Part shown: positions 1,220 through 23,982 of the stretch, piece after piece
How the letters are laid out: each line of letters begins with the position of its first letter
How positions within the stretch are numbered: position 1 is the first letter of the stretch
Source: Acidobacteriota bacterium
Lineage (GTDB): Bacteria > Acidobacteriota > Terriglobia > Bryobacterales > Bryobacteraceae
DNA length: 33,464 nt
Reading direction: 5' to 3'
Assembly (NCBI GenBank): GCA_026394075.1
Contig: JAPKYX010000027.1
Span: 1 to 33,464, forward strand
Notes under the pieces: model-generated
Told to the model about the DNA's origin: nothing
Database searches by the model: none
Seen by the model: only the letters and a program-made list of their open reading frames with translations
Program-made: the position numbers and the translations under genes

Positions 1220-2494
1220 ATGAGTGATTTATTCGGTCTGGGCGTCGCCCGGCGAGATGTCTTACGGGCCAGCGCCCTGGCGGTTCCCGCAGTGTTGTCG
1301 GCGGCGCAGGCGTCGAATGCCTTGAAGGTGGGACTGGTCGGTTGCGGTGGCCGGGGAACGGGCGCGGCGGCGCAGGCGCTGAAGGCGGACGATTTTGCCG
1401 AACTGACGGCGGTGGCGGACATCGACCTGGAGCGGATTGACGCAAGCCTGGCGACGCTCACCAAGGTGGCGGGGGCCAAGGTGAAGGTGGACCCGGCCAA
1501 GAAGTTTGTCGGTCTGGATGCCTTTGAGAAGGTGATCAGCTCCGGTGTCGATGTCGTGCTGCTGGCGACGCCGCCCGGCTTCCGGCCCCAACATTTACGC
1601 CGCTGCATCGAGGCGGGCAAGCACGTATTCTGCGAGAAGCCGGTGGCGACCGATGCGCCCGGCATCCGCAGCGTGCTCGAGACCGCCAAGCTGGCCAAGG
1701 AAAAGAATTTGTCGCTGGTGGCCGGATTCTGCTGGCGGTACCACAACGTCATCAAGGCGGCGTTTGACCAAGTGGCCGCCGGGGCGATTGGCAACATCAT
1801 GGCCTACTACGCCACCTACTACACCAGCCCGGTGAAGCCTATGCCGCCCGCGAACACGCGCCCGGCCGGGATGAGCGACGTCGAATGGCAGATCCGCAAC
1901 TGGTACAACTTTGGCTGGTTGAGCGGCGACGGCCTGGTGGAGCAAGCGGTCCACAGCGTCGACAAGATCGCCTGGGCGATGAAGGACAAGCCACCAGTGA
2001 GCTGCACGGCCGTGGGTGGCCGCCAGATTCCGGCGCACGGCGGCAACATCTTCGACCACATTGAAGTGAACTACCTCTATCCGGATGGCGTGCGGGCCTT
2101 CATGGGCTGCCGTCAGATCGAGCAGTGCTACAACGAGAACGCCGACTACATCCTGGGCACCGAAGGCGTCTGCACCATCGGGCGTGGCGCGCGGCCCAAG
2201 ATCACGGGCAAGACCACATGGAGCTTTGAGGGCACCCCCTACGACATGTATCAGGCCGAGCATGACGCTCTGTTTGCCAGCATCCGGCAAGGTAAGCCGC
2301 TGAACGACGGCGAGCGGATGACCACTTCGACGATGCTGGCGATCATGGGCCGCATGGCCGCCTACACGGGCCAGCAGTTGACGTGGGAGCAGGCCCTGAA
2401 CTCGCAGGAGAAGCTGGTGCCGGACACGATTGACTGGGGCGGCAGCTTGCCGGAACTGCCGCTGGCGCGCCCGGGGATCACGAAGTTTGTCTAG
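1220..2494 (+). CDS. Tat-exported Gfo/Idh/MocA-family oxidoreductase
   Basis: A 424-residue NAD(P)-dependent oxidoreductase of the Gfo/Idh/MocA family, whose members oxidise or rearrange sugars, inositols and related polyols. A twin-arginine signal is visible (ARRDVLRAS, R11-R12, then a hydrophobic stretch to about residue 31), so it is predicted to be exported already folded with its cofactor. The Rossmann motif GLVGCGGRG is at 38-46, the family signature EKP at 139-141, and a VHSVDK segment carries the probable active-site histidine at about 245. The ATG at 1220 is chosen because the Tat signal begins there; the frame is open to 1121 but that part lies in the SRP RNA. There is no Shine-Dalgarno; TAGAAT ends 7 nt before the ATG, suggesting a leaderless mRNA. 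The substrate is unknown. The next gene starts within or just after its end. Confidence 0.88.
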   Translation: MSDLFGLGVARRDVLRASALAVPAVLSAAQASNALKVGLVGCGGRGTGAAAQALKADDFAELTAVADIDLERIDASLATLTKVAGAKVKVDPAKKFVGLDAFEKVISSGVDVVLLATPPGFRPQHLRRCIEAGKHVFCEKPVATDAPGIRSVLETAKLAKEKNLSLVAGFCWRYHNVIKAAFDQVAAGAIGNIMAYYATYYTSPVKPMPPANTRPAGMSDVEWQIRNWYNFGWLSGDGLVEQAVHSVDKIAWAMKDKPPVSCTAVGGRQIPAHGGNIFDHIEVNYLYPDGVRAFMGCRQIEQCYNENADYILGTEGVCTIGRGARPKITGKTTWSFEGTPYDMYQAEHDALFASIRQGKPLNDGERMTTSTMLAIMGRMAAYTGQQLTWEQALNSQEKLVPDTIDWGGSLPELPLARPGITKFV

Positions 2495-3881
2495 GGTAGA
2501 ACATCCCGCTCCGCAGGCGGCGCAGGCTTTGGCCTGCAGGCGGAATTCATTCCGCCCGCTGGGCCTGCTGCTGGCGGTCTATGGCACCTCCGCGTGGGCC
2601 GCGGTCGATTTCAATGCGCAGGTGCGGCCCATCATTGAGAGCCGCTGCATTGGGTGCCACGGGTCGGAGCGAGCACTGGGCGGGTTGCGTCTGGATTCAT
2701 CCGCCGGGGCCGCCAAGGCGATTCGCGCCGGAGACCCTGAGGCCAGCCCATTGATCCGGTCGATCGCGCTGGCCCCCACGGTGCGCGGCGCGATGCCCCC
2801 GGGCGGTCCGGCGTTGAGTGCCGAGCAGGTGGCCGTGATCCGCCAGTGGGTCTCTGAGGGCGCGTCCTGGCCCGCCGGGCTCACCCTGGCGAGCGCCCGC
2901 AAAGCAGCCAAGGACGACTTGGCGCTGGTGGAAAAGCTCCGAGCGAAGATCGTCGCCAACTCACCCGAGAAGTCGGCGGCGGAGATGAAGGCGTATGAGA
3001 AGCCGATTCCGGGCAGCACGGTGAACTACCAGATGGTACCGATCCCGGGCGGTACGTTCACGATGGGTTCACCCGAGGGCGAGCGTGGCCGGAAAAAGGA
3101 TGAAGGGCCGCTGCACAGCGTTGCGGTTGAGCCGTTTTGGATGGAGAAGTTCGAGGTGACCTGGGACGAGTACCGGCTGTTCATGTTCGCCGAACGTGAT
3201 CCGGCCACTCAGGGGGCCAACCCGGAAGTGGATGCCGTCAGCCGCCCCACGCGGCCCTACGTTGAGATGAGCTTTGGCATGGGCATCAATGGCTACCCGG
3301 CGATCAGCATGACCCAGCACGCCGCCAACAAGTACGCGCAATGGCTGAGCGCCAAGACCGGCCACTTCTACCGGCTGCCCACCGAAGCGGAATGGGAGTA
3401 TGCTTGCCGCGCCGGTTCCACTACCGCCTATTCGTTCGGCGACAATCCATCGGCCCTGGGCGAGTATGCGTGGTTTGCCTCCAATAGTGAAGAGAAGTAT
3501 CAGAAGGTGGGCACGAAGAAGGCCAATGCCTGGGGTCTGCACGACATGCACGGCAACGTCGCGGAATGGACGCTGGACCAGTACGACCCGGGCTTCTACG
3601 CCAAGCCGGAGGCCGCCGGAGTTTCGCCGCTGAACCGCCCGACCCAGCCTTACCCGCATGCCGCCCGTGGTGGCGGCTGGAGCGATGACCCGGCTCAACT
3701 GCGCTGTGCGGCGCGGGTGGGCTCCGATGCGTCGTGGAAGATGCAGGACCCACAGCTGCCCAAGAGCATCTGGTATCTGACCGATGCCCAGTTTCTGGGC
3801 TTCCGCCTGGTCCGCCCGCTGAAGGTGCCCACGGCGGCGGAGATGTTCAAGCTGTGGAACAGTGGCACGGAACGGGATTAG
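2487..3881 (+). CDS. Planctomycete-type cytochrome c domain fused to an FGE-sulfatase (SUMF1-like) domain
   Basis: An exported two-domain protein. With the TTG at 2487 (overlapping the stop of the preceding gene) it has 464 residues; a second TTG at 2529 gives 450 residues and a more typical signal peptide (ACRRNSFRPLGLLLAV, cleavage after SAWA). Numbering from 2487, the haem motif CIGCH is at 54-58 within a PSCyt1-like domain (FNAQVRPIIESRCIGCHGSE, later AMPPGGPALS). From about residue 183 a formylglycine-generating-enzyme-like fold follows: MVPIPGGTFTMGSPEGE, YRLPTEAEWEYACRAGS, GLHDMHGNVAEWTLD and FRLVRP. The FGE fold also includes EgtB/PvdO-type iron enzymes, so the reaction cannot be named. 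Fusion to a c-type haem suggests a periplasmic redox partner or substrate anchoring (inference). The start region is formed by a REP-like repeat. Confidence 0.85.
   Translation: MSRVEHPAPQAAQALACRRNSFRPLGLLLAVYGTSAWAAVDFNAQVRPIIESRCIGCHGSERALGGLRLDSSAGAAKAIRAGDPEASPLIRSIALAPTVRGAMPPGGPALSAEQVAVIRQWVSEGASWPAGLTLASARKAAKDDLALVEKLRAKIVANSPEKSAAEMKAYEKPIPGSTVNYQMVPIPGGTFTMGSPEGERGRKKDEGPLHSVAVEPFWMEKFEVTWDEYRLFMFAERDPATQGANPEVDAVSRPTRPYVEMSFGMGINGYPAISMTQHAANKYAQWLSAKTGHFYRLPTEAEWEYACRAGSTTAYSFGDNPSALGEYAWFASNSEEKYQKVGTKKANAWGLHDMHGNVAEWTLDQYDPGFYAKPEAAGVSPLNRPTQPYPHAARGGGWSDDPAQLRCAARVGSDASWKMQDPQLPKSIWYLTDAQFLGFRLVRPLKVPTAAEMFKLWNSGTERD
2511..2558 (-). repeat. Twin-hairpin REP-like repeat, copy B, inside a gene start
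   Basis: Read on the minus strand: GGCGGAAT-GA-ATTCCGCC (2556-2539), one T, a second palindrome GCAGGCCAAAGCCTGC (2537-2522), then GCCGCCTGC. The same arrangement occurs at 23935-23982 with other stem bases but preserved pairing. It covers the possible TTG start at 2529 and part of the signal-peptide coding region of the cytochrome/FGE gene. Confidence 0.7.
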
Positions 3882-23934: not shown

Positions 23935-23982
23935 GGGCGGGACTGAAGTCCCGCTGCAGGCTGAGAGCCTGCGCCACCTGCC
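23935..23982 (+). repeat. Twin-hairpin REP-like repeat, copy A, between convergent genes
   Basis: Palindrome GCGGGACTGAAGTCCCGC (23937-23954), one T, palindrome GCAGGCTGAGAGCCTGC (23956-23972), then GCCACCTGC. The order, the loop GA and the single-T spacer equal those of copy B at 2511-2558, while stem bases differ in a compensating way. It directly follows the kdsA stop codon on the other strand. Confidence 0.75.

Follow-up and report, generated by a model that had tools for sequence, protein, structure and literature searches.

Where does an exported protein begin when a palindromic repeat lies in front of its signal peptide, and is the repeat read as part of the protein? This question is raised by a gene in the 33,464-nucleotide stretch of DNA analyzed here (the window), whose host appears to be a member of the Acidobacteriota, perhaps near Bryobacterales. 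The gene lies directly 3' of a Gfo/Idh/MocA oxidoreductase gene (1220..2494, plus strand; identified by Pfam PF01408 at 1.3e-16 and by its translation), which ends with a TAG at 2492-2494 and whose N terminus, RRDVLR, we take to be twin-arginine-like. A small bacterial SRP RNA (Rfam RF00169, 64.1 bits) is found upstream of both, at 1058-1156; a plasmid search with this segment gave no match. The exported protein, here called cytochrome/FGE, combines a PSCyt1 domain (2646..2801, plus strand; PF07635, 5.5e-10) with an FGE-sulfatase domain (3030..3746, plus strand; PF03781, 2.3e-45). Its reading frame is open from a TTG at 2430 through 3881, and from the start codon favored below the gene would span 2487..3881 on the plus strand.

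Judging from the family, a protein with a PSCyt1 domain has to be exported for heme attachment. The mature part of cytochrome/FGE begins at about AVDF (2601), and SAWA precedes AVDF and the PSCyt1 domain at a putative AxA-like cleavage site that we judged by eye. Positions 2559..2600 (plus strand) encode the hydrophobic core and the end of the signal peptide, LGLLLAVYGTSAWA, which align with LGLLLTVYGASAWA in a relative from the same genus, G001. The h-region reads LGLLLAVYG, and the charge of the n-region is +4. Between the TAG ending at 2494 and the mature part there is no in-frame ATG or GTG. A sequence-only reading of this DNA had already pointed to the missing ATG and to two candidate starts, TTG 2487 and TTG 2529. 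Both codons are available in frame, and CTG 2559, downstream of the repeat, is a further near-start. A gene starting at TTG 2487 would overlap the Gfo/Idh stop by 8 nucleotides (2487-2494).

The repeat, which we call copy B, occupies 2514..2557 on the plus strand. A 76-nucleotide query (2490-2565) matched nine other places in its own genome at 81-91% identity over about 40-48 nucleotides (E values from 2.2e-10 to 3.7e-4), so the repeat copy that had been proposed to separate the Gfo/Idh stop from the mature part is real. Copy B forms two predicted stem-loops on the plus strand. The first (2522..2537, GCAGGC-TTTG-GCCTGC) folds at -12.1 kcal/mol, as well as 5 of 200 shuffles and better than the remaining 195, and the second (2539..2556, GGCGGAA-TTCA-TTCCGCC) folds at -11.2 kcal/mol, equaled by none of 200. 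A third hairpin predicted around copy B, at 2506-2520, comes first in order and consists mostly of flank. Consistent with the sequence-only reading, TTG 2529-2531 is a loop codon of the middle hairpin of these three (2522-2537).

Folding also supplies what can be said for a fortuitous resemblance, in which 2514-2557 would simply be ordinary signal-peptide coding sequence. Given its base composition, the 86-nucleotide region as a whole folds ordinarily (15 of 200 shuffles do as well; z -1.5), and the first-stem pattern with up to three mismatches is not rare by chance (three sites, a count matched by 5 of 100 shuffled windows). Structure alone makes a weaker case for copy B than the sequence matches do. 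Copy B matches another copy at E 2.2e-10, and G001 carries both halves of an inverted pair at the orthologous site, so we reject chance resemblance as having next to no probability.

Copy B belongs to a dispersed family. A typical half in its own genome (G000) reads GTGGCGCAGGCTGTCAGCCTGCAGGCGGACTTCAGTCCGCC; the loop and second stem vary, and a second copy often stands opposed to the first about 100-116 nucleotides away. An exact core pattern finds 23 sites in G000, 53 in G001 and 17 in another relative, G002, and none in the reversed control of each. The G000 sites resolve into 16 places: nine inverted pairs, six single copies and one doubtful place (C120). Sixteen of the 23 sites sit in inverted pairs. 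The count of nine pairs took partners with up to four substitutions, a loose pattern that also matches three times in the reversed 33-kb window. Across 121 genomes of the bacterial family, 36 have at least one core site (these three included); 8 of the 36 have at least 12 and 28 have fewer. The reversed control gave one or two matches in 6 of the 121 genomes, so single core sites may be due to chance. A GTGG foot is present at all nine loci of the repeat family that were inspected for it and is absent from the doubtful place. In copy B the foot is GCGG (2517-2520) and the loop is TTTG. Copy B is a worn half, the left one, of a REP-type element, and it is missed by the exact core pattern. The window holds another copy, single, at 23936..23978 on the minus strand, which lies between genes according to a rough ORF filter (GC content by codon position, no gene caller).

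Judged by its sequence, the repeat is built like the GTAG/GTGG-type REPs and the dimers that they form: it is a short dispersed palindrome with a GTAG-like terminal tetranucleotide that forms dimers in opposite orientation. In the text of the 2013 REP survey available to us, GTAG-tagged REPs include singletons, dimers and intragenic copies, and a GTGG foot is noted in the majority of the O. species given (PMC3733652). The likeness is the short palindrome with a conserved GTGG foot, family identity being a comparison with the text of that survey; the difference is that we found no transposase flanked by copy B's REP. Four spellings of the core were absent from the running text of the papers searched.

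REPs of this type are often, though not in every species, associated with a RAYT transposase that the same REP flanks. The search for a transposase covered G000, G001 and G002. There is one Y1_Tnp ORF in G000, one in G001 and none in G002. The G000 ORF scores 30.8 bits against NCBIfam REP_Tyr_transpos (cut-off 80) and 32.5 bits against transpos_IS200 (cut-off 55). This RAYT-like Y1 transposase ORF (L048, 497-1078, minus strand) lies between 62-nucleotide direct repeats (418-479 and 1045-1106) unrelated to copy B, and the similar G001 ORF (L238, 1357-1851, minus strand) lies between 39-nucleotide repeats. A 10-nucleotide foot-like match near the G001 ORF is no REP copy. With both Y1 ORFs flanked by other direct repeats, none of the three genomes yielded a RAYT transposase flanked by copy B's REP, and no link between the repeat and such a transposase was found.

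We also matched REP places between genomes by their flanks, covering all 23 loci of G000, all 17 of G002 and 30 of the 53 in G001. Of the 16 places in G000, four have an exact-pattern partner in G002 and one in the covered part of G001. At the intergenic pair C42:51765, neither a clean empty site nor a target duplication could be read, as the alignment with G001 and G002 stops at the element and the sequence beyond differs.

The mature cytochrome/FGE protein has matches at E ≤1e-60 in 49 of the 121 family genomes. We translated the upstream side for 15 loci of other genera and aligned 12 of these with the three genus members; in the other three (L054, L063 and L064), one frame was read each and no Gfo/Idh end was seen. 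Comparison of orthologous 5' ends, which the sequence-only reading had suggested as a check, bore out an insertion: all 12 aligned loci have an in-frame ATG or GTG that overlaps the Gfo/Idh stop or lies at most 8 nucleotides behind it, followed by a short signal peptide, and none of the 12 carries a repeat insert.

Within the genus, the three sisters show three states. G001 (90% identical) has a full inverted pair of 124 nucleotides (L047 2258-2381) between the Gfo/Idh stop and the h-region, in frame and free of stop codons. The window has the single copy B at this orthologous site. G002, the closest relative (96% identical), has no repeat and reads LSRVEHRWDGARALVRAVLLVGGASAAWA directly before AVDF from the equivalent of TTG 2487. 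An alternative start in G002 is a GTG three codons after its TTG, where the window has GTA (2496-2498), possibly a start codon behind the Gfo/Idh stop that the window has lost. Beyond the insert, the window and G001 have the h-region LGLLLxVYGxSAWA in common. The earlier suggestion that a mobile palindrome replaced or extended the original 5' end is thus upheld for extension, given the 12 outgroups without insert, the pair in G001 and its absence from G002, and fails for replacement of the signal core, since the h-region is shared with G001.

To order these states we compared divergence along the locus. In the signal region up to the AVDF codons, the window and G001 differ at 10 of 54 nucleotides, none of them at codon position 2, and in the mature gene at 184 of 1150. 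Against G002, the window differs at 15 of 54 nucleotides in the signal region, further than from G001 despite the closer mature gene (104 of 1150). The left half of the element retains 26 identical nucleotides at its 3' side between the window and G001. Independent insertions in the window and G001 are disfavored by the shared position, these 26 nucleotides and an h-region that has diverged about as much as the rest of the gene. Similarly, it is disfavored that a G001-like strain recently donated the segment, with h-region divergence about that of the mature gene. With both alternatives disfavored, the simplest order has the element already in the genus ancestor and lost from G002. The pair was probably present in that ancestor, halved in the window's line by a net 87 nucleotides and lost with some replacement in G002; this reading draws on three genomes, and other orders are possible. 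Behind the FGE gene, ahead of its downstream neighbor, both sister species carry another inverted repeat (ending in CCCCAAGCTTACGCATGGGGC or similar; L046 at about 3715-3790, L047 at about 3744-3812), and the window does not have it.

Taken together with the start codons, these states suggest an explanation that we hold with moderate confidence as the best one. A complete inverted REP pair would have inserted just behind the cytochrome/FGE start, between a stop-coupled start codon and the hydrophobic core. In the window's lineage, the right half would then have been lost by a net in-frame deletion of 87 nucleotides and the left half kept. Ribosomes terminating at the Gfo/Idh stop would reinitiate on the overlapping TTG 2487, and the translated repeat would supply 15 residues of a 24-residue n-region, including 3 of its 4 arginines. 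The in-frame peptide QAAQALACRRNSFRP does lie within the repeat, so the basic n-region sequence is encoded there, as the sequence-only reading had it. If translated, the repeat would give the in-frame peptides VEHPAPQAAQALACR and also NSFRPLG.

That this codon is the start, that the repeat is translated and that the extended signal peptide works are inferences. TTG 2487 is present in the window, G001 and G002, lying 120, 207 and 93 nucleotides from the D-F codon, all multiples of three. Frame openness alone is weak evidence of translation, as 36 of 126 frames are open in 21 genomic REP pairs (drawn from all 23 loci of G000, all 17 of G002 and 30 of the 53 in G001). By our own estimate, an open, in-phase G001 together with an in-phase G002 has a joint chance of 0.29 x 1/3 x 1/3, or about 1 in 30; it falls to about 1 in 100 if the window's own phase is counted, but that phase is what first drew attention. 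Some points count against TTG 2487. Pairing resembling that of a Shine-Dalgarno sequence reaches -5.7 kcal/mol there, no better than the -5.8 kcal/mol for TTG 2529, with an average of -3.9 for 500 random 20-mers. TTG 2487 is partly maintained by the Gfo/Idh codons for F-V, and G001 would need a 51-residue n-region from its own TTG. Unless CTG serves as the start, however, the window must begin the exported heme protein before 2559, and the outgroup genes start at or just behind the stop, so TTG 2487 with coupling is favored.

The other TTG that had been put forward is the less supported of the two. Were translation to start at TTG 2529, the repeat would provide the start codon as well as the basic n-region, and the hairpin could modulate initiation. 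The codon is in frame in a four-base loop, and the resulting MACRRNSFRPLGLLLAVYGTSAWA has ordinary signal-peptide proportions, with an n-region of 10 residues and a charge of +4. However, TTG 2529 is private to the window among the three species (TCA in G001, absent in G002), its upstream ribosome-pairing bases lie partly within the predicted first hairpin of the element, and an overlapping TTG is available 42 nucleotides upstream at the Gfo/Idh stop. We consider a start at TTG 2529 decidedly unlikely.

Most REPs are untranslated and intercistronic, and copy B might be no different. The gene would then start after the repeat, the window using CTG 2559 and G001 a TTG that aligns with it, with a short uncharged signal peptide, and the hairpins would act, if at all, on the mRNA. 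The TTG of G001 stands exactly at the h-region, G002 has an in-frame GTG two codons past the aligned codon, and orthologues L050, L052 and L055 have equally short uncharged signal peptides. The 2013 survey, in its available text, records NH2-terminal REPs for several species and cautions about just this, in that the true starts may be downstream (PMC3733652). On the other hand, CTG is a rare start codon, which the window would have to use for want of an ATG, GTG or TTG at that place, and all three species keep the frame in phase. Predicted ribosome pairing is weak before the downstream TTG of G001 (-0.9 kcal/mol) and reaches -4.8 kcal/mol before CTG 2559.

Substitutions by codon position also bear on whether the repeat is left untranslated. 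Between TTG 2487 and the end of the left half, the window and G001 differ at 13 of 71 nucleotides, distributed 3/7/3 over codon positions 1/2/3 (3/7/4 over 72 nucleotides, the last base being at the deletion junction), compared with 35/16/140 in the mature gene. This deficit of third-position changes (P 0.0002, or 0.0006 for 72 nucleotides) means that the stretch from 2487 to the repeat end has no coding-like substitution pattern, as an untranslated repeat would predict. Nine of the 13 differences fall between the Gfo/Idh stop and the repeat, and three fall in the repeat.

A control for this test is provided by another copy of the same family. The REP copy at C77:17538 forms part of the linker that joins a glycosyltransferase to a methyltransferase domain in a single ORF of 677 residues (L163 / L185-L187), encodes GGTEVPLQAEACAT, and is in frame in G001 and G002 too. 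It is certainly translated and is the only clear case of translation. Differences between its own genome and G001 are distributed 6/11/13 in the linker, whereas the gene shows 49/31/197; P is 0.001 in each of two comparisons. Since this certainly coding linker also lacks third-position bias, the codon-position test cannot decide translation. The pattern from 2487 to the repeat end fits either a leader that is not translated or an n-region in which most residues are tolerated. Weighing these points, we regard an untranslated REP with a downstream start as unlikely, though deserving serious consideration, and translation of copy B in some form as probable.

Further copies of the family lie in or against ORFs. 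At C95:11545, a PTPS-family ORF (L169 / L179-L181) overlaps the preceding ORF through its ATGA, and the REP starts within its codon 8. The N-terminal extension of this ORF measures 144, 153 and 147 nucleotides in the three species, with the REP kept in all of them and changed in G002. Third-position bias is weaker in the extension than in the core (4/6/8 compared with 7/5/24 between the own genome and G001; P 0.04), and PTPS may in truth start at a GTG further downstream. An in-frame REP is probable both in the PTPS N terminus and in the cytochrome/FGE gene. The C152 REP place touches the 3' end of an ORF. We suggest tentatively, at somewhat less than even probability, that the family repeatedly became coding in this genus, as an n-region, a two-domain linker and an N-terminal extension in three unrelated genes and three different frames, with the G001 pair translated as a signal-peptide insert of about 41 residues.

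Unusual as a palindrome in a signal-peptide region is, events of this kind have been described before. Rickettsia palindromic elements (RPEs), as the available text of two papers describes them, are protein-coding, 105-146 bp long and in frame in protein genes (PMC3733652, PMC2229807). The family analyzed here resembles them as a palindrome in frame in protein genes, clearly in the glycosyltransferase-methyltransferase linker and probably in the PTPS and cytochrome/FGE genes. However, RPEs of 105-146 bp are Rickettsia-specific as far as those texts go, whereas our element is from another organism, has a half unit of about 40 nucleotides and is known from sequence alone. We do not file it as an RPE. 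In Yersinia, a palindromic MITE partly forms the signal peptide of YPO1552 (Delihas 2007, via the available text of PMC2229807). There too, part of a predicted signal peptide comes from a small mobile palindrome, but the hydrophobic MITE peptide is thought, according to that account, to create a new exported protein. In cytochrome/FGE, by contrast, an existing exported protein would have its n-region extended, with the h-region outside the repeat. Beyond the 2013 survey and the 2007 review, we recognized no like case among titles and abstract beginnings on REPs in Acidobacteria or intragenic REPs.

At sites such as this one, annotation that simply chooses a single one of the possible starts would be unreliable. 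If the repeat is translated, the cytochrome/FGE locus would add a case of a REP family in coding sequence. The full pair, the half and the empty state at one gene in three sisters would then form a natural series of palindrome uptake and trimming with the frame kept, and the n-region of a signal peptide may tolerate much.
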